NCBI GenBank assembly: GCA_030824515.1
Contig: JAVBXN010000060.1
Span: 124,001-188,000, forward strand
Origin: Pelobacter sp.
GTDB taxonomy: Bacteria; Desulfobacterota; Desulfuromonadia; Geobacterales; Pseudopelobacteraceae
Reading direction: 5' to 3'
DNA length: 64,000 bases
Part shown: positions 1,371 to 19,192 of the stretch, piece after piece
Layout: each line of letters opens with the position of its first letter
How positions within the stretch are numbered: position 1 is the stretch's first letter
The notes under the pieces: model-generated
Told to the model about the DNA's origin: nothing
What the model saw: only the letters and a program-made list of their open reading frames with translations
The model's database searches: none
Position numbers and translations under genes: made by a program

Positions 1371-4007
1371 ATGACAGGTAAAGAAATCAGAAAACAATTT
1401 TTGCAGTATTTTGCCGACCGTGGACATACGGTTGTTGCCAGTTCGGGCATCCTTCCCAAGAATGATCCGACCCTGATGTTTGCCAATGCGGGTATGAACC
1501 AGTTCAAAGACTGTTTCCTGGGTCTTGAGGACCGTGGTTATAACCGGGCCTGCAGTTCGCAGAAGTGCGTGCGGGCCGGCGGAAAACACAACGACCTCGA
1601 AAATGTCGGTCGCACTGCGCGTCACCATACCTTTTTCGAGATGCTGGGAAACTTCTCCTTTGGCGATTATTTCAAGAAAGAGGCGATCGCATTTGCCTGG
1701 GAGTTTTTGACCGGGGAGTTGCAGCTGGACAAGAGCCGACTGTATGTGACGGTTTATAACGATGACGACGAAGCCGCCGACATCTGGCACCTTCAGGAAG
1801 GGGTGCCGCGCGAGCGGATCTTCCGTTTCGGAGAAAAGGACAACTTCTGGTCCATGGGTGACACCGGTCCCTGCGGTCCCTGTACCGAGATCTTCTGGGA
1901 CAATGGCCCGGAAGTGGGTTGCGGTTCGCCGGAGTGCGCCGTGGGCTGCGATTGCGATCGCTACATGGAAATCTGGAATAACGTCTTCATGCAGTTCAAC
2001 CGTTCGGCGGACGGCAGCATGACGCCGCTGCCGAAGCCGTCCGTGGACACCGGTATGGGGCTGGAGCGCATCACCACCGTGATGCAGGGCGTGCATTCCA
2101 ACTACGACACGGATCTGCTGCAGGGCATCATCCGTCACATAGAACGCCACAGCGGCAAAAAGTACGGCGCCAATGAGAAGGACAGCGTGTCAATGCGTGT
2201 GATTGCCGACCACTGCCGCGCCGTCACTTTCCTGATTTGCGATGGCGCCCTGCCGAGCAACGAGGGACGCGGTTACGTGCTGCGCCGGATCATGCGCCGA
2301 GCCGCACGCCATGCCAAGATGCTGGGTGTGAGCGAACCGCTGCTCTGCCGGATGGTCGAAGCGGTGCGTGAGATGATGGGGGATGCCTACCCGGAACTGG
2401 CCGAACGCGAGGCCTATATCAAAAAGGTGACCCTGGCGGAAGAGGAGCGTTTCAACGAAACCCTGGATCGCGGCCTGGGCATTCTCAACGACGAAGTGGC
2501 TTCACTGCGGTCAGCCGGAAAAAGCGTGATTCCCGGAGAGGTGCTCTTCAAGCTTTATGACACTTACGGTTTCCCGATCGATTTGACTGGAGATATCGTT
2601 GATTCGGAAGGATTCACGATTGACGAGGCCGGCTTTGAGTCATGCATGGAAAAACAGCGCGAGCAGGGTCGGGAAAACTGGAAGGGGTCCGGAGCGGCCG
2701 GTATCGCCGATATCTACAAGGCTATCCACAATCGTGGAGTACACTCCCAGTTTATCGGTTACGATGCCCTCACCGCCTATTCTCCGATCAGGGCTCTCGT
2801 GCGGGACGGTGTTGAAGCAACCTCCGCCGCTGCCGGCGATCGTGTGGATGTGATCGTCGAGTCATCCCCCTTTTACGGAGAGTCTGGTGGACAGGCCGGC
2901 GACATCGGAGTAATCTCGTCCGGCAGCGCCCATCTGGACGTGCTGGAAACCACACGGCCATTCCCGGATTTTATCGTACATCATTGCCAGGTCAGGGAAG
3001 GGGCGGTACGGGTATCGGATGCGGTCAACCTGACCGTGACAACTTCCGTCAGAAGAGCTACGGCACGCAACCACACCGCGACCCACCTTTTGCAGACCGC
3101 TTTGCGCCAAGTGCTGGGCGATCATGTCAAACAGGCCGGCTCGCTGGTATCGACGGACAGGCTGCGTTTCGACTTCACACATTTTTCCGCCATGACTGCG
3201 GATGAAATTCGCCGGGTTGAAACGCTGGTGAACGGTTTCGTCATGGAGAACGATCCGGTCTCCACCAATCTGATGCAGATCAACGAGGCGATCGAAGCCG
3301 GAGCCACCGCGCTGTTCGATGAGAAGTACGGCGATTCTGTAAGAGTCGTCCGGGTTGGCGACATCAGCATGGAGCTGTGCGGCGGAACCCACGTCAGGGC
3401 GGCCGGTGATATCGGGCTGTTCAAGATCGTTTCGGAAGCCGGGATTGCCGCCGGAGTGCGGCGCATCGAGGCCTTGACCGGTACGGGCGCACTGGGTTTC
3501 GTTCGGCAGATTGAAGACGAACAGCACGCGATAGCCGTACTTCTCAAGGCGGAGGGGGGCAACCCGCTGGACAGGCTTGAGAAGCTGCTGGCGCGTCAGA
3601 AAGATCTGCAACGAGAGATGGAAGCGTTGCAGGGCAAGCTCAATGCCGTTGCTTCCGGCGACCTGTTGTCGCGGGCCGAGCTGGTTAACGGTGTCAAGCT
3701 TCTGGCGACGCAGGTCAAGGTGGAGGATATCAAGGCTTTGCGGGACCTGTCCGACGCCCTGAGAGACCGCATCGGAGAAGGGGTGATCGTGTTGGGGGCG
3801 GATATTGGCGGCAAGGCCAACCTGCTGGTAGCGGTCACCAGGGAGTTGAGCGCAAGAATCAAGGCCGGAGACCTGGTCAGGCAGATGGCGCCAATTGTTG
3901 GCGGAAGCGGCGGCGGCAAGCCGGAGTTGGCCCAGGCTGGAGGCTCGCAGCCTGAAAATATCGGGGACGCCCTGGCAATGGCCGCAAAGATTCTTGCCGG
4001 CGCCTGA
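1371..4007 (+). CDS. alaS: Alanine--tRNA ligase
   Basis: Charges tRNA-Ala with alanine in the cytoplasm. The 878 residues match the usual bacterial length. In order: the class II aminoacylation core (motif-2 region with [15 protein letters not shown] and GDTGPCGPC), a tRNA-recognition helical domain, and the editing domain with zinc-site HTATHLL (HxxxH) and the later CGGTH. A C-terminal coiled-coil and C-Ala domain ends in the glycine-rich [16 protein letters not shown], typical of AlaRS. The ATG directly abuts the preceding stop; GAAGGGAAA serves as ribosome site. No T-box leader is possible here because a gene lies directly upstream. Identification is secure. Confidence 0.98.
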
Positions 4008-4025
4008 CATGGGCAGGGAAATAAT

Positions 4026-5147
4026 ATGAATACACCAGTTGAAAATGGATCAGAAGCTCCCATAAATACCGAAAAGACAACCATTCTGGTCGTTGACGAC
4101 GATCCCAATATCCGTGATCTGTGCGGACGGGCTCTCAGGGAATACCGGGTGCTTCAGGCCGGCACGATACAGGAAGCCATCAGTGTCTACAGGAAGGAAG
4201 CAGTAGACCTGATTCTCACGGATGTGATGATGCCGGGCGGTTCCGGAATCGAGCTGTTGAAGCAGGTCAAGCAGTTGGACCCGACCGCGGCCGTTATCAT
4301 AATGACCGGTTTTGCCGATAAAGACGTTATTCTAAACGCGCTAAAGGAAGACGCGGATGACTTTATCAATAAGCCGCTCAATCTTCTTCAGTTGAAGACC
4401 TATGTTGAAAAGGCGCTGGCAAAAAAAGCGCTCAAGGAAGAATTGACAAATATCAAATGCGCTGACCAGCTGAAGAGCACTTTTCTCTCTTTGATCTCAC
4501 ATAAATTGCGCACTCCGATAACCGGAATCTCACTTTTCCTGCAGAATATTCAGCGTGGAGTCTATGATTCCGATAAAGAGATGTTTCGTCAGAACGCTTC
4601 ATTGGTCTATGAGGAGTCCGCCTACCTCAGTCGCCTGGTTGCCGACCTGTTGACTTTCAGCCGGATCATGATTGACGGGGAAGAAAACCAGCGTGAAGAA
4701 TGCGACCTGAATGCGATTGCCTCCGACCTGTTGAGTAAGGCAAGAGAAGCCCACGGCAAATTGTCTATCGAGATTGATCTGAATCTGGGGCAGTTGCCGC
4801 TGATGAATCTTTACAAACACAAAATCAGCTTCGCCCTGTACCAGGTCATAGATAATGCCTTCAAGTTTTCGGGGGATATCGGGCATGTGGGGTTGACTAC
4901 CGTTGCATCCGGGAATGAAGTCTGCATAGTGATCTCTGATTCGGGTGTCGGCATTTCCAGATCAGATTTTCCCAAGGTGTTTGAAAAGTTCTACCAGGTT
5001 GATCCGGACTATACCGGCCAGGTGCGCGGGTTCGGCCTGGGGCTTTTCTATGCCCGGGATTTCATCCGCCAGCATGGCGGCAGCATCAGTCTGGATAGCG
5101 AACCGGGCTTGGGTACCACTGTCACCATCTGTCTGCCGCTGCAATAA
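4026..5147 (+). CDS. Receiver-histidine kinase hybrid (REC-HisKA-HATPase)
   Basis: A 373-residue soluble signalling protein with the receiver first. Residues about 15-135 are a REC domain with DDDPN acid pocket, phospho-acceptor Asp about 66 (LTDVMMP) and Lys in INKPL. A HisKA domain follows with His about 159 in SHKLRTPITG. The rest is a HATPase_c with DNAFKFS, DSGVGIS and GFGLGLF boxes. There are no membrane segments or PAS domains, so it probably receives phosphate or signals from another kinase. Such REC-HK proteins often act as intermediate hubs. It sits 18 bp after alaS, with a terminator-like hairpin behind it. Partner and output cannot be read from the sequence. Confidence 0.9.
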   Translation: MNTPVENGSEAPINTEKTTILVVDDDPNIRDLCGRALREYRVLQAGTIQEAISVYRKEAVDLILTDVMMPGGSGIELLKQVKQLDPTAAVIIMTGFADKDVILNALKEDADDFINKPLNLLQLKTYVEKALAKKALKEELTNIKCADQLKSTFLSLISHKLRTPITGISLFLQNIQRGVYDSDKEMFRQNASLVYEESAYLSRLVADLLTFSRIMIDGEENQREECDLNAIASDLLSKAREAHGKLSIEIDLNLGQLPLMNLYKHKISFALYQVIDNAFKFSGDIGHVGLTTVASGNEVCIVISDSGVGISRSDFPKVFEKFYQVDPDYTGQVRGFGLGLFYARDFIRQHGGSISLDSEPGLGTTVTICLPLQ

Positions 5148-8287: not shown

Positions 8288-9517
8288 ATGGCAATGACAG
8301 GGAAGCGTGAAATCAAGAAGATAGTTCTGGCCTATTCGGGTGGTCTGGATACCTCAATTATCCTCAAATGGCTGAAGAACGAGTACGACTGCAAGGTCGT
8401 GGCCTTTTCGGCCGACCTTGGCCAGGGCGACGAGCTCGATTCGATCCGCGAGAAGGCTCTGGCCACCGGCGCCGATAAAGTCTATATCGACGATCTGAAA
8501 GAAGAGTTCGTGCGCGATTTCGTATATCCGATGTTTCGCGCCAACGCCATTTACGAAGGTCACTACCTGCTGGGCACCTCGATCGCCCGTCCGCTGATCG
8601 CCAAGCGTCAGATGGAAATCGCCGCCAAGGAAAAATGCGATGCGGTATCCCATGGCGCCACCGGCAAGGGTAATGACCAGGTTCGCTTCGAGCTGGCCTA
8701 TTATCATTTCAATCCCGCCATCAAGGTTGTTGCCCCATGGCGCGAATGGGACCTGAACAGCCGCCAGGCCCTGATCGATTACGCCAAGAAGAACGATATC
8801 CCGATTCCGACCATCAAGAAGCGTCCCTGGTCGTCCGACCGCAACCTGCTGCACATCTCCTTCGAGGGTGGCATCCTGGAGGATACCTGGGCCGAGGCGC
8901 CGGAAGAGATGTACGTGCTGACCAAGCCACCTGAAAAAGCACCCAACAAGCCGCAGTATGTGGAGATCGAGTTCAAGAACGGCAATGCCGTGGCCGTGGA
9001 CGGTGAGCAGATGACTCCGGCCCAGCTTCTGGCGCACCTGAACTTCATCGGCGGACAGCACGGCGTAGGCCGGGTTGACCTGCTGGAAAACCGTTCGGTC
9101 GGCATGAAGTCGCGTGGCGTCTACGAGACACCCGGCGGAACGATCCTGCGCGAAGCCCATTCGGCTGTCGAGCAGATCACGATGGACCGCGAAGTAATGC
9201 GTATCCGCGACAGCCTGATTCCCGAATATGCCAAGCAGATCTATGCCGGCTACTGGTTCTCTCCCGAGCGCCTGATGCTGCAGACGCTGATAGACGATTC
9301 CCAGAAATGCGTCAACGGCGTGGCCCGCGTCAAGCTCTACAAGGGGCACTGCCGCACCGTCGGCCGCAAGTCCGAGTCCGATTCGCTCTTCAACCTGGAC
9401 TTCGCCACCTTTGAGAAGGACCAGGTCTTCAACCAGGCCGATGCCGAAGGCTTCATCAAGATCAACGCGCTGAGGCTGAAGATCAGGTCGCTGATGCAGG
9501 CCAACCGGAAGAAGTAA
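8288..9517 (+). CDS. argG: Argininosuccinate synthase
   Basis: Condenses citrulline and aspartate using ATP. 409 residues, with the PP-loop AYSGGLDTS near the N-terminus, [15 protein letters not shown] in the middle and the typical [10 protein letters not shown]-like [13 protein letters not shown]. An AAGAGGAGG ribosome site is set 8 bp before the ATG at 8288; a second in-frame ATG two codons later would serve equally. It is the last gene of the argBDFG run; argH, which normally follows, is about 9.7 kb away beyond an accessory island. Confidence 0.97.
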
Positions 9518-9541
9518 CAACTTTGTAACATGAGGATGATG

Positions 9542-9584
9542 AAAAAACCGCTGAACCGCAGAAATGCCGGTTTAGCGGTTTTTT
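9542..9584 (+). terminator. Strong terminator after argG
   Basis: AAAAAACCGCTGAACCG pairs with CGGTTTAGCGGTTTTTT (17 bp, one G-T pair) around a 9-base loop. The run of A on one side and T on the other means it can stop transcription from either strand. It ends the arg run. Confidence 0.9.
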
Positions 9585-9610
9585 GTTATGAACCCTAAAA
9601 AAGGCATTTA

Positions 9611-9764
9611 CTCACGCAACGACGCAACGAACGCGACGAAATTCAAATACTTAAGAAGATTTGTAACCTCACCGATCTGGTGAATGATGTTATCGTTTAA
9701 CTGCCTGATTTTACGTTGCGTCGTCGCCTAGAGGCGCCTACTTTTGGTGCGTTCGTCGCGTGAG
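9611..9764. repeat. Imperfect inverted repeat made of degenerate ACGCAACG units
   Basis: The left arm (9611-9639) starts CTCACGCAACGACGCAACG and repeats ACGCAACG/ACGCGACG units. The right arm (9711-9764) reads GTGCGTTCGTCGCGTGAG and TTACGTTGCGTCGTCGCC, the complement of the same units. Between the arms lie about 70 bp without a gene. The arms are tandemly degenerate rather than exact, as in intergenic repeat families seen in several Geobacter-like genomes. It lies at the left border of the accessory island. Confidence 0.65.
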
Positions 9765-9943
9765 ACTGCTTTTTCTGATCGTGAACCGGAAGCGGTTATG
9801 CGGGCGTTACGGGGGTAGGTTTGGTCGTCTCGGCGCGTGTTTTGGTCTGATCCGTTGACAGGCAGGCGTTGCCGGAGTAACGTGGGCGATCATTTTTGTT
9901 ATGGGGTTGGTTATGGAGTGGGATCGTGTTAGATAAATGACAG

Positions 9944-9984
9944 AAGCCGCTTTACCGGTATGGCCCGGTGGAGCGGCTTTTTTA
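9944..9984 (+). terminator. Orphan terminator hairpin
   Basis: AAGCCGCT-TT-ACCGG pairs with CCGGT-GG-AGCGGCTT, followed by TTTTTATTTTT. No intact gene stands directly upstream on this strand, so it is probably left from a lost gene or guards the island edge. The 160 bp before it (9780-9943) hold no gene I can support. Confidence 0.75.
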
Positions 9985-10000
9985 TTTTTGGGAGAATCGT

Positions 10001-10090
10001 ATGTCACGAGGCAAACCTTGGACACATGATGAGTTGATGCTGTTTCCGCCGGATTAAGGGTTTGTGCAGATGCACCGGGAAGAGGTTTTC
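10001..10090 (+). pseudogene. Possible N-terminal remnant of an HNH-type nuclease
   Basis: An ATG opens an 18-codon frame containing SRGKPWTHDELML before a TAA. The same frame past the stop reads GFVQMHREEVF. The RGKPWT-x-x-EL start, followed by a PFGQ-H-like stretch, is how I remember a family of restriction-type HNH endonucleases beginning. If right, only the first 25-30 residues survive, just before the large NTPase gene. The match is short and made from memory. Confidence 0.3.
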
Positions 10091-10098
10091 TGAATTGA

Positions 10099-13000
10099 AT
10101 GGTGTTGGTTTACTCCCTTGTCGTGTTAGCAATGAGCACTGGAAACGCTATTGTGCAGGGGAGGAAGTTACAAGAATGCGGTGTATTGCGACTAAAAGGG
10201 AAGACAGATTTGTCCTCATCCGGAGCAAAAGCAGCGTTAGAAGGCTACAGAAAGCAAGCACTCTATACGCTTGCCTGCATTCTGCATCCCGATGGACAGA
10301 ACCTTATTTTTCAACCTGAAGGCACTGAGGATTTGGCGGTGTATCGTGGGCAACATCTTCTTCGCACCATACAGGTCAAAGCCTATTCCGACAATCTGAC
10401 GCTCTCCAGTTTTACACCGGGAAAACTGGGATCATTTTTTCACAGGGTAACGGATCATGCAACAGACGATGACCTTGAAATTGAAGTGGTCAGCTTTGGG
10501 CCAATCGGCGCGGAGATAAATGGCGCTTGGTCAGGCGTTGAGCGACATTGTGCATCGGTCAGAAAAAAACTCTGTGATTATAAGTTTACCGATTCACAGG
10601 TAGACACCCTATTTAACCGGCTGCAATGGAAAAAGGTCAATGAGGAATCGCTGCAAAGGCAGGTTTTTGATTTCTTACGTGACTCGGCAGCCGGAGGTGA
10701 CCCTGAAACCTCCTTCGATCTCCTTACTATCTGGGTATATTTTGCTGCCGAGAAGAGACAGAGGATCACCTACCCTGAACTGATAGACAAGATCAACGCC
10801 ATTGGCACATACAACGCCGAACGTGCTGCTTATCTTCAGGAATGGAATAATTCAATCATCCCTATCACAGACTCACCGGTTGATTCAGGCCAAAACGAAC
10901 AACTGTCCAGAGAATTCTACAACGGTATATCTACCCGTTACTCCCATATTCTTGCCGGGTTCGACGTTCCCCGCCATGACAAGCTAAATTCGATAGAGCA
11001 GGCGTTCTCACCAGATACTCGCACAGTGATTGTTCACGGCGCATCTGGCCAGGGCAAAACCACCCTTGCACTGCGTTTCCTGCATGACTACGTGCCAGAA
11101 CAGTGGCGTTACTCGATTCGCTATCTGCAAGACAAAAACCAGATAGCACAGGTTGCCAATGCGCTGGCCGGACATCTGCGTGTCGTCAATGCTCCTTTGT
11201 ATCTGCATCTTGATGTGTCACCCCGTGACCATGAGTGGCCGGAGCTGGTCAAAAACCTGCTGGATGAAATGAATATTCGCCTCCTCATTACTATCCGCGA
11301 GGAAGACCTTGCCAGGAATACGGTTTCCGATGCCGAACTCGGATTCCCCAAGACCATACCCCTTATTTTCAATGAGAGCGAAGCACGCACCATCTATGAA
11401 CGGCTGCTGGAACAAGGTGTAACCGCGCCATTCCCTTCATTCGACGATGCCTGGGGTCGTTTTGGCGGTGAAGGTCCGCTGCTGGAATTTGTCTATTTTA
11501 TAACCCAGGCTGAATCGCTGAAAGAACGCCTTCACAATCAGGTTCTTCGTCTGCGGGAAGAGGTGAGAACCAACAAGCTTTTTCCCGAGGAGCTTGTTTT
11601 TATGCGGGTCTGCGCGGTGGCAAGCGCCTTTGAAGCCAGGGTTGATGCGGCATCGCTTGCCACAGAATTGAAGCTGAAAGATCCTGTCCGCACTCTTCAA
11701 CTTCTTGAAGAAGAATATCTGCTCCGCTCCACCCATGATAGGCGTCATGTTGAAGCGCTTCATCCAATCCGTTCTGAAATACTTTCCAACGAATTGACCG
11801 ATCCGGTTTTCGAGCCATGGCGCGAAGCAGCACAACTGGCGATAAACCATATGCCGGAGCCTGACCTCGAAGCATTTCTATTGTATGCATTTGCTCGGCG
11901 ACCAGAAGACGTCGAGTTTCTTGTTGCGGACATTAGCCGGTATTGCCCCAAAACGTGGTCAGGTGTAGCAGCCATTATGCGCGCCTTGATCTGGCTTGGC
12001 GTGAAAGAGTATGTGGACGCAAATATGCCGCTGATTGTTGAAGCGCGGACATTGTTTACCCAAGCATGGTACATGGCGCTGAAATTCGATATCAGCGGCA
12101 TTTCTTCAGATGGTGACGCCGGACTTCTTGGCGCGTTTAAGCTTCTTGAATTTGGCTCAACCGAAGCAATTGAAAATCTGCGTTTGCATCAAACGGACAA
12201 GCAAACTGTTTTTATCAGATTAACCGTATGGGTAAACGGCAACAATGGCGTACCGCATGCCCCGCAAACCGTCTCGGACTGGGCCGGCTTTGCCGAGGCG
12301 CATTTCTGGATTCGGCATCTCAAACTTGCAACAGCATTGACCGATTCTGTGGGGTTATTAGACTTGTCCTGGCCTTTGGAACAGCTCTCGTTCAGAGGCT
12401 TTGGCGAGGTTCTTCTCAGCCTGTCGTACGCCCCCGAAGTTGTCTACCAAAAGGTCATTAAGCCGCTTCAAAGCCGGATCATGGAACGTTTTTGCGCAGA
12501 GACCAAAACGATTGCAATTGAAGAAACCGACGAAATGGTTCGTGCCCATTATCTGGTTCCCATGGAGTCGCCCGAGAACAGCACGGATAAGAAGAACCAA
12601 AAACAGACGGGCGATAGACTGGAGACCGAAACCATCAAGTTGTTAGGCCTGCTGCGCATGTATGTTCCTGACCGAAAGGCATATGGTGTGCAAGGATACG
12701 GGCACAATCTCCGCTTTATTCCCATACCGTTTGATCGGACTGCAAAAGGACCGGTGGAAATGAAGTATCTGCTCCCGGAGTGGCCCGTTAGAGTAAACAG
12801 CATTTTCCGCAACTTGGCTGACTTGCCTTTTCGTCAGGCTACTTGGCAGGCTTATTCCGAAACAATTGTTGCTATTCGTGAACAGGTCATCTCGGCCTTG
12901 AATTCTCTTGTAAAGGCCTTGACCGCCTATTTTGCAGGGAACAGGGCCGAAATACTGTCCAGAAAACTGCCGCAGGAGTTGTGGAGTGAAAGCAACAGGG

Positions 13001-14379
13001 TGGTTAACCAGAATTTGAGTCTGCCAAGAATAGCTGTCGATGAATGGGGATTGGTCGGTGAAGGTGGTGGCGCTTCTGACAATGAATCCGCCATGAAGAC
13101 CCGGAAAGACCAGTCCATCTCTCTTGTGCTTCAGGCGTATCAGCCGTATTTGAAGGCTAAAAATGACTATTTTTCTTCATTGAGGAACTATTTCAACCAG
13201 TCTATTGAGTCACTTGTCGTAAACAGCAATTTGGGCCGGATGAAGGCGGGGAGTGAAAGGGAACGGTATTTGGAAAAGTGTGCCGACCTTGGATATAAAT
13301 CCGGTACCGACAGGCTCAGTCTGATCAATTTGAGCGCGGCCTGGAAGGTGCTTTCCGGCTTACAGACAAACTTTCACTCACTGTTGTCCGGTTTCGTTGT
13401 CAAGGATCGCCTCCAAAAACTGGAAAACCGAGAGAACAAGATTTTCCCTGCTGCCTGGGCCTTATGGTATCAATTTGTCTATCATCCCGAAAACCAGTGG
13501 GATGCAGCCGATATACGGGCTGTTGGAGCGTTTGAACGGGTACAGGACACATTGCGGAACAACATAAAACGTCGGCTGAATGCTTTGCCCGATTCAGGTT
13601 GGAGCGGTTCGATCATCAGTGAAACAGTTCTCTGGGAAGGACGGCCAAGTCTCTGGTTTCGTCTTGATGCAGAAAATTCACTGGCGATTTTTGAGGCGTA
13701 TCAAAGGCTTGTACAACTGCTTGAAGAAGCGTTTGCACCGATGGATATCGGGACATTGGAACACTACGTTCTCGATATTAAATGGCCGCATATAGTGATT
13801 GTCCCGTTCATTGCCGGAGAGTATTTGCAGAATGGAGTCTGGCATCTTTCGTCTTGTCTTTTCTGGGGTGGAGAGAAGGTCTTAGATCCCGAAAAAACCT
13901 GGTTATTTATGCCGAGAGAAGTTGATGCCGAATCATTGCAGCAGATTGGTATAGAAGTGTTCGAGCAAATTACACCGGGGAAAGTCCAATTGCTCCAGCA
14001 AGCAGCTTCCGAATTATTGGTATATGTAGACCACCTGTCCGACCTGCTCAAAGCACCGGATGACCTTGATGAAATAGGCATGGCTATTTTTCAGAAACAT
14101 GTCCATGCAAAAGTGCAAGATGCTTACGATGCACTATCAAGGGTGGTTGCACAGATTCAGGTGTTGCTTGACGAAGTTAACGCTGGTGTTTTTGATTCAT
14201 CGCCGCATGCCGATGAAATTCGGAGATTGTTGGTAGAAATCTGGAAATGCGTCATGCCGGAGGGCAAGTCCGAAGACTCGTTTGAGATTAGTCTTTCATC
14301 CTGCGGTGCATGGGCGGAAAAATTGCTGGAAGGCCTCGGGCATATGACAATCCTGAATTGTTTGTATGTTCAAGTGTAG
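10099..14379 (+). CDS. Putative anti-phage nuclease-STAND NTPase (Avs/Cap4-like architecture)
   Basis: 1426 residues. Residues about 40-200 look like a PD-(D/E)XK nuclease of the Cap4/DUF4297 sort: GYRKQALYTL helix, then PEGTEDL (about 73-79) and IQVKAY (about 91-96), giving the E...D...QxK set. Residues about 280-600 are a STAND-type P-loop NTPase: Walker A GASGQGKTT (314-322), Walker-B-like LYLHLDV (367-373), ITIREED sensor (397-403), GGEGPLLEF (456-464), then a winged-helix-like part. The remaining 800 residues appear helical and unlike any repeat I know; in Avs proteins this part recognises phage proteins. There are no membrane segments. It stands alone between terminators, in visibly lower G+C sequence than argG. 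The start is uncertain: ATG 10099 has GGGAAGAGG 13 bp upstream, and ATG 10132 is an alternative. Function is inferred from architecture only. Confidence 0.75.
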   Translation: MVLVYSLVVLAMSTGNAIVQGRKLQECGVLRLKGKTDLSSSGAKAALEGYRKQALYTLACILHPDGQNLIFQPEGTEDLAVYRGQHLLRTIQVKAYSDNLTLSSFTPGKLGSFFHRVTDHATDDDLEIEVVSFGPIGAEINGAWSGVERHCASVRKKLCDYKFTDSQVDTLFNRLQWKKVNEESLQRQVFDFLRDSAAGGDPETSFDLLTIWVYFAAEKRQRITYPELIDKINAIGTYNAERAAYLQEWNNSIIPITDSPVDSGQNEQLSREFYNGISTRYSHILAGFDVPRHDKLNSIEQAFSPDTRTVIVHGASGQGKTTLALRFLHDYVPEQWRYSIRYLQDKNQIAQVANALAGHLRVVNAPLYLHLDVSPRDHEWPELVKNLLDEMNIRLLITIREEDLARNTVSDAELGFPKTIPLIFNESEARTIYERLLEQGVTAPFPSFDDAWGRFGGEGPLLEFVYFITQAESLKERLHNQVLRLREEVRTNKLFPEELVFMRVCAVASAFEARVDAASLATELKLKDPVRTLQLLEEEYLLRSTHDRRHVEALHPIRSEILSNELTDPVFEPWREAAQLAINHMPEPDLEAFLLYAFARRPEDVEFLVADISRYCPKTWSGVAAIMRALIWLGVKEYVDANMPLIVEARTLFTQAWYMALKFDISGISSDGDAGLLGAFKLLEFGSTEAIENLRLHQTDKQTVFIRLTVWVNGNNGVPHAPQTVSDWAGFAEAHFWIRHLKLATALTDSVGLLDLSWPLEQLSFRGFGEVLLSLSYAPEVVYQKVIKPLQSRIMERFCAETKTIAIEETDEMVRAHYLVPMESPENSTDKKNQKQTGDRLETETIKLLGLLRMYVPDRKAYGVQGYGHNLRFIPIPFDRTAKGPVEMKYLLPEWPVRVNSIFRNLADLPFRQATWQAYSETIVAIREQVISALNSLVKALTAYFAGNRAEILSRKLPQELWSESNRVVNQNLSLPRIAVDEWGLVGEGGGASDNESAMKTRKDQSISLVLQAYQPYLKAKNDYFSSLRNYFNQSIESLVVNSNLGRMKAGSERERYLEKCADLGYKSGTDRLSLINLSAAWKVLSGLQTNFHSLLSGFVVKDRLQKLENRENKIFPAAWALWYQFVYHPENQWDAADIRAVGAFERVQDTLRNNIKRRLNALPDSGWSGSIISETVLWEGRPSLWFRLDAENSLAIFEAYQRLVQLLEEAFAPMDIGTLEHYVLDIKWPHIVIVPFIAGEYLQNGVWHLSSCLFWGGEKVLDPEKTWLFMPREVDAESLQQIGIEVFEQITPGKVQLLQQAASELLVYVDHLSDLLKAPDDLDEIGMAIFQKHVHAKVQDAYDALSRVVAQIQVLLDEVNAGVFDSSPHADEIRRLLVEIWKCVMPEGKSEDSFEISLSSCGAWAEKLLEGLGHMTILNCLYVQV

Positions 14380-14456
14380 CAATTAGGGGAAACCACATAA
14401 GTTTGTCTCCTTACAAGCTGTACCTCAGGCAAGAATGCACTTTATTGAATGAAGAT

Positions 14457-14570
14457 ATGGGCTCATTATCTGCTACCATCAAACACTTCGCCTCCCTCGA
14501 CCGCGCCCCCGGCTCAACCTAGACCGAAGCCACCAAGTGCAAGGCGCCGCACAAGAGCATAATTATGAAG
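14457..14570 (+). pseudogene. N-terminal remnant of an HNH/restriction endonuclease
   Basis: The frame reads IKHFASLDRAPGST, then a TAG where Trp is expected, then TEATKCKAPHK. The pattern (helix, 'W-T-x-A-T-x-x-x-APHK') matches the start of a common HNH restriction endonuclease family whose members continue with PLLLLAVL. Here the frame runs into unrelated sequence after APHKS. It carries both a nonsense codon and a 3' truncation, so it cannot work. It follows the STAND gene by about 80 bp. The rest of the 14380-14722 gap shows only a short GAAGGATGAATT/GAGGGATGAA near-repeat at 14564-14592. Confidence 0.45.
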
Positions 14571-14722
14571 GATGAATTATGAGGGATGAACCTTGGATAA
14601 AGCGTCTAATGATCCTGTAAATGAGCCTGTAAAAGCGAAAGCTAGTTGGACGCCTTTCGAATATTCACATTCCCTGTTAGTCTTGGTTGCGAGAAAACTT
14701 TGACCAAAGCAAAGGAACGGAT

Positions 14723-15127
14723 ATGAACTTTGAAACCATCGAAGACGCCTTTCATTTTGTCAGTAGCGCTGCCTATGGCGAGCATGTAGCGGTTGTCAGT
14801 CGCACGACCGGCCAGGCGTATTTTGCCTCGATTCTGTCCAATTACGACGAAATGCCGGACGATGTTGACGAGAACGACGACTATATCGGTATCCCCCACA
14901 AGAACGATCTTGACCTGGGGAAGTCGCTGGTAATGGAGTTTGTCCGGCTGCGTTGCCCGGATAAGATCGACTACGTTCATTCCGTCATGAAGCGGCGGGG
15001 TGCGTACGGGCGCTACAAGGAGTTGCTTGCAGAGAAAAATCTGTTGGAAGAATGGTATGCCTTTGAAAACGACCGGACCAGAGAGGCGCTGCTGGAATGG
15101 TGCAAGGAGAATGGAGTGGTCTTTTAA
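14723..15127 (+). CDS. UPF0158 family protein
   Basis: 134 residues. The start at MNFETIEDAF is preferred over an in-frame ATG 36 bp upstream because AAAGGAACGG lies 3-12 bp before it and family members start this way. The protein is acidic, with FHFVSSAAYGEHVAVVSRTTGQ and VMEFVRLRCPDKIDYVHSV leading to a C-terminal RYKELLAEKNLLEEWYAFE, the hallmark of UPF0158. The family has no established function. It is intact and lies between relics of restriction genes in the island. There is no partner gene in an operon with it. Confidence 0.75.
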   Translation: MNFETIEDAFHFVSSAAYGEHVAVVSRTTGQAYFASILSNYDEMPDDVDENDDYIGIPHKNDLDLGKSLVMEFVRLRCPDKIDYVHSVMKRRGAYGRYKELLAEKNLLEEWYAFENDRTREALLEWCKENGVVF

Positions 15128-15136
15128 CCTGTAAAC

Positions 15137-15282
15137 GGCAGTTAACCGCCGAGAAAAACGGATGCACGCCGATAAAACCTGGACATACATCAAAAAAGTT
15201 AATCACCTGCTGGGTTAAACCAGTATTTTGTTCAAGGTTTTGATTTCTCGGCGTGTATCGGCGTTCATCGGCGGTTAACTGC
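15137..15282. repeat. Imperfect inverted repeat of ACGCCGAT-type units
   Basis: The left arm has GCAGTTAACCGCCGAGAAAA and ends with GCACGCCGATAAA; the right arm (15244-15282) reads TTTCTCGGCGTG...CGGCGGTTAACTGC. The outer 15 bases of the arms are exactly complementary, and the inner parts are degenerate ACGCCGAT units. About 60 bp without a gene separate the arms. It fills the gap between the UPF0158 gene and the four-helix gene. It is the same kind of structure as at 9611-9764 but with a different unit. Confidence 0.65.
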
Positions 15283-15323
15283 TTTTTCTAGGTTTAATAC
15301 AGCAAATTGCAAGGCAGGAAACC

Positions 15324-16098
15324 ATGACCACTCACTCTCCAACGCTGCGCCCTCACGGCGGTTACCGTAAACTTCGTTCATTTCAGGTAACCGAGATCGT
15401 CTACGACGGCACGGTTTCCTTCTGCGACCGTTTTGTCAGCAAAAGGTCGCGGACTCATGACCAGATGGTTCAGGCGGCGCGCAGCGGACGGCAGAACATC
15501 GCCGAAGGGAGCAGGGCATCGGCAACGTCGAGCCAAACTGAATTGCGGCTGGTGAACGTCGCACGCGCCAGTCTTGACGAACTGCTGTTGGATTACGAAG
15601 ATTTTCTCCGTCAGCGAGGTCTGCCGGCCTGGGGGAAGGATGATCCGCAGGCGCGGGAGGTGCGGACGGTTGGAAGAGAAAACCCGACCGATCAGTCTGA
15701 TCGGACAAATCAGTCGGATGCAAAAGCCTATGCTTGTTGGCTGAACAATGCCGATCCGGCGGTGGTCGCCAACACGCTGATTTGCCTGATTCATCAGGCA
15801 AATTATCTGCTCGACCGGCAGATTGCCGGCCTGGAAAAGCAATTCATTCAGGAAGGTGGCTATAGCGAGCGGCTGCACGCTGCCCGGCTGGAGGAGCGCC
15901 GAAAACAGACACTGCCAGATCAATCAGTCAGATCGGACTGATCAGCCGGATAAATTACTTTGTCAGGCATGCGGCAAACCGATGGTGGTTCGGACGGCCC
16001 GGCAGGGACCCAATGCAGGGGCACAATTCTTGGGGTGTTCGGGATATCCAGAGTGCAAATCTACCCGGCCGGTTATCCGAGGCGCGCCTGGTTCATAA
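15324..16098 (+). pseudogene. Four-helix-bundle suffix protein with zinc ribbon, frameshifted
   Basis: The first frame encodes 205 residues: a four-helix bundle of the S23/IVS-like type (MVQAARSGRQNIAEGSRA, followed by LRLVNVARASLDELLLDYEDFL) and a second helical part with HQANYLLDRQIAGLEKQF. It stops at 15941. The next frame continues with DQPDKLLCQACGKPMV and GCSGYPECKSTRP, a topoisomerase-type four-Cys zinc ribbon that usually ends such proteins. The break is a tandem TCAGTCAG at 15924-15931; dropping one TCAG restores a 256-residue frame. A recent 4-bp duplication is the simplest cause. The part before the zinc ribbon is a low-complexity DQSDRTNQSD tract, prone to slippage. The 205-residue product may still be made. 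Confidence 0.7.
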
Positions 16099-16099
16099 G

Positions 16100-16435
16100 A
16101 TAGGCGCAATCACCATCAAGGAACTTGCGCTGGTTCAAAAAGGTTCAAACTTGAGGGTCGCGTTTCCAAATTCCATTTTTCAGAAATATGATCCCATTTT
16201 TGACCGTTTTAACACAAGGATTGCCGCTTTGCCTGCCCCCCCGAAGAACATAACGGATTTCTGGTTAAAAAAGCTCATATCCAACGAGACTCGCGACAGC
16301 CAAGTCAAATCTGATCTGGAATTGTTGGGCTGGCGGGTGATAACCGTCCGGGAATGCGAACTTCGGGAGCCGGGGCAACTGGCGGCTCGGCTGGATGCCG
16401 GGTTAACAAGTGACATCCCCGTATTCTATCATTGA
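16100..16435 (+). pseudogene. vsr remnant: C-terminal third of a very-short-patch-repair endonuclease
   Basis: From 16238 the frame reads PPKNITDFWLKKLISNETRD, then LELLGWRVITVRECELREP. This is the C-terminal signature of Vsr endonucleases (FW-x-x-K, N-x-x-RD, GWRV-x-x-x-ECEL). The N-terminal catalytic half, with its metal-binding Asp and His residues, is absent. It is replaced by about 45 codons (ITIKELALVQKGSNLRVAFP and following) that I cannot place. No start codon with a ribosome site precedes it; the frame runs out of the zinc-ribbon region of the gene upstream. A second copy of this fragment lies at 18140-18413. Confidence 0.6.
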
Positions 16436-16536
16436 CTTAGGAACAGTCATTGTTTTATTTTACTTATATGTATCCAATAAAATAATTTATATTCAACATG
16501 TTACCGTGATATTTGCATGAATCATTATTAAAAATA

Positions 16537-16565
16537 TTGAAACATCTCCTTAAAACTGGTATGTT
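16537..16565 (+). promoter_or_regulatory. Candidate promoter of the AbiE-type pair
   Basis: TTGAAA and TATGTT are separated by 17 bp, in a strongly AT-rich 130-bp gap. The predicted start would be near 16572, at the ribosome site GGAGGT, so the leader would be almost absent. AbiEi-type antitoxins often bind their own promoter, but I see no clear paired operator. Confidence 0.3.
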
Positions 16566-16583
16566 TTTATGGAGGTAAACTTA

Positions 16584-17165
16584 ATGACCGCTCTGGAAAA
16601 CGTAAAAACCAAACTGAAACCCGGCCAGGTGTATCGTCGCTCCGACCTTGAAAAGTTGTCACGTAGCGTGGATCGCGACGTTGCCGGGTTGGTGAACGAG
16701 GGTACACTGGTGAAAGTTGGCAGCGGGATGTATCAATGTCCTCAACGATCCCGTTTCGGTGTGTTGCCTGCCAATATCGATAAACTGCTCACCTCATTCC
16801 TGAAAGACGATGATTATCTGGTGACATCCCCCAACGACTACAACTCCCTGGGACTGGGTACAACACAGCTCTACAACTATCAGGTTGTTTACAACCACAA
16901 ACGGCATGGACGCTTCGAGCTTGGCGGGCAACTGTTCGAGTTCCAGAGAAAACCGCGGTTCCCGAAGAAAGCGACTGCAGAGTTTCTGCTGGTGGATCTG
17001 GTGAATAACCTGGATCAACTGGCGGAAGATCGTGATGCGGTTCTTGCCAGGGTGCGGGCCAGGGTGCCGGAAATGGATGCCAAGCGCCTGCGTGCCGCTG
17101 CAAAGAGCTTCGCCAAGGTAGCCACTCGAAAGCTGCTAGAGGAGGTGCTAGCCGATGCAAGCTGA
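16584..17165 (+). CDS. AbiEi-type antitoxin (type IV TA)
   Basis: 193 residues, starting at MTALENVK. This ATG has GGAGGT 7 bp upstream; the ATG at 16569 overlaps that ribosome site and is unlikely. The N-terminal part (PGQVYRRSDLEKLSRSVDRDVAGLVNEG) is a winged helix for DNA binding. The rest (YLVTSPNDYNSLGLGTTQLYN) matches the AbiEi/DUF6088 antitoxin body. In type IV pairs the antitoxin opposes the toxin without direct binding and represses its own operon. It overlaps the toxin gene by 11 bp. The pair is flanked by two vsr fragments, suggesting it arrived as a unit. Confidence 0.8.
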   Translation: MTALENVKTKLKPGQVYRRSDLEKLSRSVDRDVAGLVNEGTLVKVGSGMYQCPQRSRFGVLPANIDKLLTSFLKDDDYLVTSPNDYNSLGLGTTQLYNYQVVYNHKRHGRFELGGQLFEFQRKPRFPKKATAEFLLVDLVNNLDQLAEDRDAVLARVRARVPEMDAKRLRAAAKSFAKVATRKLLEEVLADAS

Positions 17166-18105
17166 CAGATATCTGCACGACTTGAAGGACTTTCGCGACC
17201 TGATCCGGGTCGTCTCCAATGAAAGGCGAATCCTGCCGCAGTTGATAGAGAAGGATTACTGGATCATGCATGTTCTGTATGGCCTGGCGAAACAGGGATT
17301 TGTCTTTGAGCTGAAGGGTGGTACGTCTCTCTCGAAGGGATACCGGATTATCGAGCGTTTCTCTGAAGACATTGATATCCGCATTGAACCACCTGGGGAA
17401 TTGAAGGTCATGGCCGGCAGGAATCACCAGAAACCGGCCCATGTCGATTCCCGTCGGCGCTTCTTCGACTGGCTGGCTGAAAACATCCACATTCCGGGAA
17501 TTGTGAGCGTCAATCGTGACCATGAATTTGACGATGAACAGTTTCGCGGTGCCGGAATCCGCTTGATTTATCCGACAACATTGCAGGCGGTTGATGGGCT
17601 GAAACCAGGCATACTGCTGGAAGTGGGCTTCGATGATACCACTCCCAACGAGGCGGTTGACATCTCGTCATGGGCGCTGGACAAGGCTGCAACAAGCGGC
17701 GTCAAATTCACCGATAACAGCGCGTTGCAGGTGAAATGCTATCATCCTGCCTATACACTGGTAGAGAAACTTCAGGCCGTATCGACCAAATTCCGTCAGC
17801 AACAGGAATCGGGGGGCTTCCCGGTGAATTTCCTGCGGCATTACTACGACATTTATTGCCTGCTGGCTGATCCGCGAGTGTTGGAGTTTATCGGCACGGA
17901 GACATATCAGAAGAGTAAGGAGGAGCGTTTCCGCAAGGAGGATATCAGGCGTGTCTCGGAAAACCAGGCCTTCCTGCTCCAGGATCCGGCGGTTTACCAG
18001 CTTTACACTTCAGAGTATGCAAAGACCGAAGGGCTGTATTATGCAGGTATGGTTTCGTTCGATACGATCCTGAAGCGAATTCAGGATAGCTTTGATCGGC
18101 TGTGA
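17155..18105 (+). CDS. AbiEii nucleotidyltransferase toxin
   Basis: 316 residues. The nucleotidyltransferase core is clear: FELKGGTSLSKGYRIIERFSEDIDIRI region with GGTSLSK (the GS-type motif) and the paired acids in SEDIDI, plus the conserved LPQLIEKDYWI before it. A C-terminal helical part has YTLVEKLQAVSTKF and LRHYYDIYCLL, both typical of the AbiEii/AbiGii toxin family. Related toxins transfer nucleotides to tRNA and stop growth during phage infection. The gene overlaps its antitoxin by 11 bp, and all key residues are present. Confidence 0.85.
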   Translation: MQADRYLHDLKDFRDLIRVVSNERRILPQLIEKDYWIMHVLYGLAKQGFVFELKGGTSLSKGYRIIERFSEDIDIRIEPPGELKVMAGRNHQKPAHVDSRRRFFDWLAENIHIPGIVSVNRDHEFDDEQFRGAGIRLIYPTTLQAVDGLKPGILLEVGFDDTTPNEAVDISSWALDKAATSGVKFTDNSALQVKCYHPAYTLVEKLQAVSTKFRQQQESGGFPVNFLRHYYDIYCLLADPRVLEFIGTETYQKSKEERFRKEDIRRVSENQAFLLQDPAVYQLYTSEYAKTEGLYYAGMVSFDTILKRIQDSFDRL

Positions 18106-18139
18106 AGAGATATGCGGAGCAACGAACCAAAGAGCATCA

Positions 18140-18413
18140 ATAGATTTCTGGTTGAAGAAACTTGAATTCAACGTCATCCGTGACCTGCTGGTGGCCTTGT
18201 CTCAATTGCCGCCATACTGAAAAGCATGGAGCGGGCGAGCTCTGGTTTGGCGTTCGCAACGATGGCTAGGCCGTATAGATTGTATGCAAGCGAAATGAGT
18301 CTGCGGGACCTCTCCCAATCCAATGCCGCTCACATCGAGCACAGAATATATCCCAATTATTGGGCTGGCGAGTGATAATCGTCCGGGAGTGTGAACTTCG
18401 GTTGCCGGATGCC
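18140..18413 (+). pseudogene. Second, interrupted vsr remnant
   Basis: Two pieces in different frames: IDFWLKKLEFNVIRD at 18140-18184 and LLGWRVIIVRECELRLP at 18357-18407. They are the same Vsr C-terminal segments as in 16238-16395, with close base identity over the second piece (TTGGGCTGGCG-GTGATAA-CGTCCGGGA). About 170 bp of unrecognised sequence separates the pieces here. No open frame remains. The copies bracket the AbiE pair in the same orientation. The rest of the 18106-18568 gap holds a candidate promoter and nothing else I recognise. Confidence 0.55.
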
Positions 18414-18508
18414 ATTTGCTCCCCATTTTCAGCTCGGTATCACACCATGCGGCACAACTGTGCCCATATAATCTCCAGCCAGGTTCCATAACGATCATAA
18501 TAACACTA

Positions 18509-18538
18509 TTGACAATGCTCTTTACCGCATGGTTAGAT
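18509..18538 (+). promoter_or_regulatory. Candidate promoter of the RelE/ParE-type pair
   Basis: A perfect TTGACA is followed 18 bp later by TTAGAT. It lies 31 bp before the antitoxin start, with the ribosome site GAGGGGG between. Confidence 0.4.
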
Positions 18539-18568
18539 GTGTCATAAAGAATGCCGAGGGGGCCGGTT

Positions 18569-18823
18569 ATGCCGCACATATCTGCAAATGACCTGAAAAT
18601 CAAAGGGGTTTCCGTAATTGAAGCCATACTTGCCACTCAACCGGAAGCGGTTATTTCCGTTCGCGGCAAGGAGCGGTTTGTGGTTATGGATATGGACCAT
18701 TATCATTACCTGCGTGAATGCGAACTGGAATCGGCTCTGGCCCAGACACGCGCCGATCTTGACGAAGGGCGCTTTGTCAAAGGAAGCGCGGAAGACCATC
18801 TGGCCCGTCTAAAGACCGCGTGA
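18569..18823 (+). CDS. Type II antitoxin, Phd/YefM-like
   Basis: 84 residues. The start at MPHISANDLKIKG is chosen because GAGGGGG sits 6 bp upstream; the ATG at 18551 has no ribosome site. The N-terminal half (KGVSVIEAIL, EAVISVRGKERFVVMDMDHYHYLRE) has the beta-alpha-beta DNA-binding form of Phd/YefM antitoxins. The C-terminal half is the charged, probably disordered toxin-binding tail. Its stop overlaps the toxin start in TGATG, so the two are coupled. It likely represses its own promoter together with the toxin. Confidence 0.75.
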   Translation: MPHISANDLKIKGVSVIEAILATQPEAVISVRGKERFVVMDMDHYHYLRECELESALAQTRADLDEGRFVKGSAEDHLARLKTA

Positions 18824-19098
18824 TGAGTTGGTCCCTGGTTTTTACCGAGCAGTATGAAAAACGTGCCCAACGCTTTCTAAAGCGCCACCCGGAGCTGGAA
18901 AAACAGTATCTGAAGACTCTGCAACTACTGGAAGCCAACCCGCACCATCCTTCATTGCGCCTGCATCCGCTGTCAGGGCGACTTTCCGGATTGCATTCGG
19001 TTTCAATAAACCTGTCCTATCGTATCACTCTTGAGTTTCTGTTAACTGACCAGGAGATTATTCCGGTAAACGTTGGCGACCACGATACAGTGTATTGA
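18823..19098 (+). CDS. Type II toxin, RelE/ParE superfamily
   Basis: 91 residues from the ATG in TGATG; a GTG three bases earlier is possible. The fold signature is FTEQYEKRAQRFLKRHPELEKQ, then LRLHPLSGRLSGLHSVSINLSYRI and the ending NVGDHDTVY. This is close to RelE/YafQ/StbE-like ribosome-dependent mRNA interferases. Whether it cuts mRNA or acts on gyrase (ParE) cannot be told from the sequence. It is the last gene of the island before argH. Confidence 0.75.
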   Translation: MSWSLVFTEQYEKRAQRFLKRHPELEKQYLKTLQLLEANPHHPSLRLHPLSGRLSGLHSVSINLSYRITLEFLLTDQEIIPVNVGDHDTVY

Positions 19099-19119
19099 TG
19101 CAAAGGATACGTCTCTGCT

Positions 19120-19147
19120 TTGATTTTATCCGTTTTTCGCGTATAGT
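19120..19147 (+). promoter_or_regulatory. Promoter of argH
   Basis: TTGATT and TATAGT are separated by 16 bp, ending 45 bp before the argH ATG. This gives argH its own promoter now that the island separates it from argG. No ARG-box-like palindrome is visible nearby. Confidence 0.5.
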
Positions 19148-19192
19148 GACCCATCTCGGATTTCTAGACCAGTCATAAGGAAACAACCTGCC

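Follow-up and report, generated by a model that had tools for sequence, protein, structure and literature searches.

A one-protein STAND NTPase with a Cap4/DUF4297-type nuclease domain, likely an abortive-infection effector, in the variable argG-argH interval of a Pelobacter genome

Introduction

Known Avs proteins (antiviral STAND, for signal transduction ATPases with numerous domains) detect phage proteins, terminase or portal for example, through sensors built of repeats, and the C-termini of Avs1-4, including Avs3, carry tetratricopeptide repeat (TPR)-type repeats. SeAvs3, an Avs3 protein, joins a Cap4-type nuclease, a STAND NTPase and a large C-terminal region in a single chain. Lamassu, the system of the protein LmuA, has an SMC-like partner gene, LmuB. 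Passages of PMC11291478 liken the SeAvs3 nuclease domain to Cap4 and DUF4297; they describe DUF4297-HerA, whose nuclease resembles those of SeAvs3 and Cap4, as degrading phage and host DNA in abortive infection, which needs its PD-(D/E)xK motif. Part of PMC12931631 presents nSTAND3 as a module named for Avs5 (Sir2-nSTAND3-repeats), a protein with TPR and Sel1-like repeats that links phage-protein recognition to its STAND module, and a section of PMC8195603 describes how bacterial conflict systems swap effectors, REase (restriction endonuclease) and TIR among them. Here we analyze a 64,000-nucleotide stretch of Pelobacter sp. (contig JAVBXN010000060.1, positions 124,001 to 188,000; the window), in which a gene between argG and argH encodes a nuclease domain, a STAND NTPase and a long C-terminal region.

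We propose that this protein is very probably a nuclease-armed effector of abortive infection, like a nucleotide-binding leucine-rich-repeat receptor (NLR-like), that does its work as one protein and in the manner of Avs, though PADLOC does not recognize it as Avs. Behind this proposal are its three-part architecture, conserved catalytic and switch residues, selection on the sequence, a different N-terminal gene in a few loci, a patchy distribution across phyla, a single-gene segment and a defense-leaning neighborhood.

Results

The open reading frame (ORF) at 10099-14379 on the forward strand is real and intact, as the first-pass annotation had it, and the motifs quoted there (PEGTED...IQVK, GASGQGKT and ITIREED) are all present. 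It is not a chance ORF: a profile scan of genome_contigs with a six-row alignment found relatives at 54 loci, 42 of which have one open frame of at least 1290 amino acids, and the ratio of nonsynonymous to synonymous substitution rates (dN/dS, from our own counting script) against the relatives L016 and L015 is 0.17 overall and lowest in the NTPase, at 0.10 and 0.08. A third relative, L017, was left aside for this ratio because its silent sites are saturated. The length of 1426 residues first given holds from the first ATG. The likely start is the TTG at 10210, giving 1389 residues, because the position equivalent to residue 38 of the 1426-residue form is where two of the three closest relatives begin: L017 (also found as L004) begins MASGAKAAL and L015 (L003) has a Met before SSSGAKAAL; L016 (L002) has no ATG at this point. 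We number residues from this TTG, that is, 37 less than in the first-pass numbering. The G+C content at third codon positions is 0.509, below that of argG (0.773) and argH (0.723), which argues for a foreign origin by composition. A promoter scan found 3 candidates where 6.4 were expected.

Several searches support the assignment of residues 1-225 as a Cap4/DUF4297-type PD-(D/E)XK nuclease, the activity first predicted for the N-terminus. The best PADLOC match of this domain is LmuA (1.1e-7 in the window protein, residues 41-241 of the 1426-residue form), which matches 26 of 41 family members at E <=0.01; Pfam Cap4_nuclease matches 17 of the 41 at the same threshold. Searching the PDB with a profile of the N-terminal half returned the DUF4297 chains 9c1m (9.5e-5) and, weakly, 8ziq (0.025). 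The residue pattern of Cap4/DUF4297 nucleases, E...ED...QxK, is present in 41 or 42 of the 44 rows of our alignment: E40 and D41, together with G12, R14 and Q16, are kept in 41 rows, the remaining three being gaps; Q55 is kept in 41 (one Lys, two gaps), and E37 and K57 in 42, the rest gaps.

The P-loop NTPase noted in the first pass, with its ITIREED stretch, is by its motifs and family matches a STAND NTPase. Its closest family is nSTAND_NTPase5 (PF25199; E 2.5e-7 and 31.1 bits in the window protein), which matches all 41 members, with nSTAND3 matching 39 (E <=0.01). As a domain family, nSTAND_NTPase5 shares the NTPase of every member and is silent on the sensor; the name 'nSTAND5' is absent, among the matches listed, from the literature matching 'nSTAND'. 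STAND proteins carry a motif set consisting of a P-loop, a Walker B Asp, a sensor Arg and a winged-helix His, which are found here in 44, 43, 44 and 44 of the 44 rows, respectively. Identity at HGASGQGK and at DV[SE]P[RNG]D[HIR][EG]W was partly selected, because both served as patterns in the genome_contigs scan; the other motifs were not patterns. We take TIREED to be sensor-1-like and, going by NLR-like proteins, LHPIRS is presumably the winged-helix His motif. A phmmer search of the PDB with the window protein gave three weak KaiC matches, at the P-loop.

The C-terminal region, about 860 residues long, is a putative sensor. It had been described as resembling no TPR or Avs clade, and our searches likewise found no coherent family: a PDB search with the C-terminal half gave nothing below E 0.12, and Pfam, run on this half of 42 members at 0.05, gave 12 scattered families, each in one or two members and none of them a TPR family. 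No internal repeats were detected by sequence (best hhalign probability 1.5%). The same holds for the TPR-type repeats of Avs, where a structure could still show a solenoid. Averages of helix and strand propensity over the region were uninformative. Some positions are strongly conserved: W595, P820 and P939 are kept in all 44 rows and G831 in 43.

Compared with described systems, the protein is closest in design to SeAvs3, with a Cap4-type nuclease, a STAND NTPase and a large C-terminal region in one chain; it differs in a C-terminal half with no TPR, repeat or PDB signal. Avs5 has a STAND design in common with it (together with the nSTAND3 matches), whereas the effector here is a nuclease rather than Sir2 and no TPR or Sel1-like repeats were found in the C-terminus. 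The nuclease of DUF4297-HerA is related in sequence through 9c1m, but in that system it is a protein of its own that joins a HerA hexamer, whereas in the window protein nuclease and STAND switch form one chain. The likeness to Lamassu is the LmuA match, whereas the rest of the protein is STAND; no LmuB was found among the six window neighbors scanned and no partner recurs across 58 loci, where the relatives' neighbors were not scanned singly.

The term 'Avs-type' used in the first pass stands as a working mode and falls as a statement of membership. The Avs4 model matches 2 of 41 members (best 0.0041), and no other Avs model is among the 19 families listed at E <=0.01 with the PADLOC-DB of 2023. 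An hhalign comparison with one Avs4 gave a probability of 20% for the P-loop stretch and 0.04%, with no alignment, for the C-terminus, and no chain named Avs is among the 22 PDB sequences listed by the A2 profile up to E 10. Avs4 was found in 1 of 198 genomes, as two pieces on different contigs. We do not file the protein as Avs because two defining features, a profile match and TPR-type repeats, were looked for by sequence and not found.

The family is sparse. Relatives occur in 4 of 196 near genomes and 2 of 395 genomes of the phylum, both counts including the window's own, and in 4 of 386 Cyanobacteria and 2 of 395 Bacteroidota, each count including the centre genome and one partial match. 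A quick tree of 42 full-length rows, with some long branches, spans ten phyla, some of them mixed and one archaeal (Methanobacteriota); the Desulfobacteraceae sequences L026 and L027 nest in Cyanobacteria (98-100% in the Shimodaira-Hasegawa-like approximate likelihood ratio test, SH-aLRT). The phylum labels were taken from the titles of records, many of which are metagenome bins, and they cluster on the tree more than shuffled labels do. In viral_contigs, one relative was found with alignment A1 and none with the single window protein, and a faecal-sample phage collection holds one relative, in an unverified, unannotated record. Six plasmid records carry relatives, two near full length and four distant. 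When eight more distant proteins were compared by hhalign, the NTPase was common to all eight (>=99.4%) and the C-terminal region to five (>=98%: L007, L010, L013, L073 and L075); it is hardly or not shared by L011 (71.9%) and by L012 and L014 (<1%).

A few loci have a different N-terminus. In the cyanobacterium Symploca (L059), the core begins with the NTPase, and a TIR gene (TIR_2, 2e-33) ends immediately before it. Because the two are not in the same frame and the core is damaged, we read the TIR gene as a neighbor in the nuclease's place and not as a fusion. In three further loci (L030 from Lyngbya, L031 and L058 from Microcoleus), an ORF of 131-133 amino acids takes the place of the nuclease, in frame with the core and with one TGA between them; for the two of these ORFs that were scanned, Pfam gave nothing better than chance. 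Only L031 has an intact core; that of L030 has a stop and that of L058 an insertion. L070 is the same DNA as L031, and L071 the same as L030. The TGA before the core is followed by C (L030:9971-9973, L031:9971-9973 and L058:9986-9988), and readthrough, a restart or an ancestral break are possible. These few exchanged N-termini suggest the behavior of a modular immune receptor. Elsewhere the gene is broken: by eye, transposase-like genes lie within the homologues of L032 (12162-13198) and L058 (11343-12385), and stops interrupt those of L052 and L030.

Table 1. Features of the gene and its locus, in window coordinates; residues are counted from TTG 10210.
Feature	Coordinates	Strand	Basis or remark
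Coding sequence	10210..14379	+	1389 residues, likely TTG start; first ATG of the frame at 10099 gives 1426 residues
Cap4/DUF4297-type PD-(D/E)XK nuclease domain, residues 1-225 (limits approximate)	10210..10884	+	family models, PDB DUF4297 chains, conserved residues
Predicted nuclease active-site stretch, E37-x-x-E40-D41 ... Q55-V-K57	10318..10380	+	role by analogy
STAND NTPase with winged-helix-like region, residues 226-530 (limits approximate)	10885..11799	+	Pfam nSTAND_NTPase5
Walker A GASGQGKT, residues 277-284	11038..11061	+	G277 to K283 in 44/44 rows, yet a scan pattern
Sensor-1-like TIREED, residues 361-366	11290..11307	+	R363, E365, D366 in 44/44 rows
LHPIRS motif, residues 517-522	11758..11775	+	H518, R521 in 44/44 rows; taken as winged-helix His motif
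C-terminal putative sensor, ~860 residues, residues 531-1389	11800..14376	+	no coherent family or PDB match, no internal repeats
Variable argG-argH interval holding the island	9518..19192	.	comparison of genus genomes
Single-gene segment, 4386 bp, absent from sister G021	10090..14475	.	homology breakpoints
AbiEi (16569-17165) and AbiEii (17155-18105), same island, context only	16569..18105	+	family scans

The gene lies in a variable interval. We searched 39 genomes of the genus, 31 of which have argG and argH on one contig; the gap between the two genes ranges from 11 bp to 14.9 kb in 30 of them and is 122 kb in one. In the window, it is 9678 bp. In the sister genome G021, homology runs to window position 10089 and resumes from 14476, with 1664 bp of other sequence replacing 4386 bp. 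In G021, argG and argH are on separate contigs, which meet at window 9365-9384, and the near-genome scan, with matches in four genomes, gave none there. The corresponding interval of G035 (L108) holds a Mza-like set (matches to MzaB, MzaC, MzaD and MzaE), a type II methyltransferase, Vsr and a PDC-S02 protein. The island had been cited in support of a defense role, and the context bears this out, with AbiE genes in the window and the Mza-like set at the same site in a congener.

Other features of the island, and of similar loci, were noted. AbiEi and AbiEii, which lie downstream in the window, also occur upstream (2986-4723) of the distant relative L011, which shares the NTPase only, on a Ruegeria plasmid. 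Decayed Vsr-like fragments at 16213-16395 and 18143-18408 are partly duplicates (87% over 54 nt), and the former is 76% identical to the Vsr gene of G035. The stretch at 15306-16073, which has a four-helix-bundle gene with a suffix domain, is 91% identical to sequence beside argH in G021. A perfect 16-nt direct repeat (9784-9799 and 18639-18654) lies near both island ends and could be due to chance.

No partner gene recurs. When the 816 ORFs that flank 58 loci were clustered, the most frequent cluster occurred in 5 loci at scattered distances, and the only cluster that is always adjacent is the short ORF of the three Microcoleus/Lyngbya loci. As far as these ORFs go, the protein stands without a partner, as first noted, and the segment absent from G021 is this gene alone.

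We also compared 136 nearest neighbors of the relatives with 136 distant ORFs. Among the nearest, 17 Pfam families recur, in two or three members each, and all are of defense or mobile type: methylases, type I specificity (Methylase_S, 3), HsdM, ResIII (3), GmrSD (GmrSD_N, 2), reverse transcriptase, maturase, integrase, RhuM, transposase nuclease, HerA, KAP, AAA and Schlafen-type domains. In the distant set, eight families recur, each found twice: five of ferredoxin type, IS21 and two domains from DUF1016 proteins. By our own sorting of Pfam families, 17/17 near and 3/8 distant recurring families are of defense or mobile type. The neighbors lean to restriction and mobile genes, a lean and not a strong statistic. 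PADLOC results for the neighbors list 25 of 255 families, by family and not by protein; the reverse transcriptase match beside L037 is one that group II introns would also give. The Geomonas relative, L017, is adjoined by an Old/GajA-like ATPase (4.8e-54). Homologues found always in metabolic loci away from defense genes, the pattern named at the outset as speaking against a defense role, were not seen.

Methods

The 44-row alignment consists of the window, L008, L009 and 41 loci; without L029 and L045, whose first 55-75 residues lie in another frame, it gives the 42 rows of the tree. Outside it are L001 and L006 (the window itself), L002-L005 (L002-L004 being the places of L016, L015 and L017), the distant L007 and L010-L014, and L030, L032, L038, L039, L046, L048, L052, L057-L059, L061, L062, L064 and L068. 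Over the 3 kb compared, L047 and L048 do not differ. The 12 loci with no frame of 1290 amino acids (L030, L031, L032, L039, L046, L052, L057, L058, L059, L061, L062 and L064) are cut by contig ends, interrupted, short or without the nuclease.

Neighbor ORFs were picked by length; window 14645-15193 (-) is a wrong-strand pick over a UPF0158 gene. The nearest set went from 190 ORFs to 186, after dropping those over 1200 amino acids, then to 150 from 44 loci and to the 136 used, from 40 loci. Dropped from it were the argG and carbamoyltransferase genes of the window and genes of L045, L031, L008 and L009. The distant set (137 listed, 136 used) comprises ORFs of 100-900 amino acids at least 5.5 kb away and within ~10 kb; it is drawn from loci other than the window and the plasmids and includes a few loci absent from the near set. 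Literature was judged by title and the start of the abstract and was mostly open access.

Discussion

By analogy with Avs, DUF4297-HerA and other STAND proteins, we infer a resting state, ligand binding, oligomerization, DNA cutting and an abortive outcome. At rest, a nucleotide-bound STAND module would keep the protein inactive. A signal of infection, most likely a phage protein, would be bound by the 860 C-terminal residues, upon which the NTPase would swap its nucleotide and oligomerize, bringing the N-terminal Cap4-type nuclease domains together. These could then cut double-stranded DNA, probably that of both phage and host, so that infected cells would be killed or stalled and the infection ended at the cost of the cell. 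The anti-phage activity that this scheme implies is presumed on the same grounds.

Several observations weigh against this proposal. Unlike LmuA, the Cap4_nuclease model gave no match to the window protein itself, and the nSTAND_NTPase5 score is below the Pfam curated cut-off of 34 bits. The sensor role follows from position and from STAND analogy, because the C-terminus has no known domain. No family recurs in more than 3 of the 136 neighbors, which is low, and one protein can account for several of the 17 families; defense neighbors are also to be expected of any mobile gene. Nor is the argG-argH slot reserved for defense, because G023 and G030 carry large insertions there that by eye look signaling- or envelope-like and not defense-like, and the common gap of ~1.7 kb holds a NUDIX-like ORF in the two genomes read.

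The restriction genes among the neighbors of relatives and the Vsr-like remnants in the window island would also suit an NTP-dependent restriction enzyme, whose C-terminus recognizes foreign or modified DNA directly and which cuts without killing the cell; a C-terminus that matches no family is compatible with DNA binding. We consider this unlikely, because the NTPase is STAND-like with an LHPIRS motif and no methyltransferase recurs as a fixed neighbor. The TIR gene in the nuclease's place also fits poorly with a DNA-cutting enzyme, though this is a single damaged locus. The relatives in plasmid records, and the integrase and RhuM genes beside some relatives, raise the idea that phages are not the main target, and that the protein is directed chiefly at plasmids or other mobile elements or stands guard over a host process; we give it little credence, since no plasmid-specific partner recurs and a plasmid location is usual for anti-phage systems too. 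That the gene is a decaying or inactive remnant with no function seems barely conceivable: some relatives are broken by stops or transposase-like genes, but the window copy is intact, its dN/dS is low, above all in the NTPase, and its catalytic residues are kept.

We thus favor a one-protein, nuclease-armed abortive-infection effector. Among the papers listed by our searches, none describes the family by title or start of abstract, and we found no name for either the family or its sensor; the general design is known, and the novelty lies in the C-terminal region and in the family itself. At about even odds, we suggest a family, unnamed and spread across phyla, of NLR-like immune proteins each encoded by one gene, in which a conserved sensor of a new, non-repeat fold (P820, G831 and P939 nearly invariant) may recognize one widespread phage feature and the effectors (nuclease, TIR or an adaptor-like domain) are exchangeable. 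A widespread STAND nuclease whose putative sensor has no sequence repeats, and in which residues are invariant across phyla, suggests another way of recognizing infection and, as a single gene, it is easily tested.

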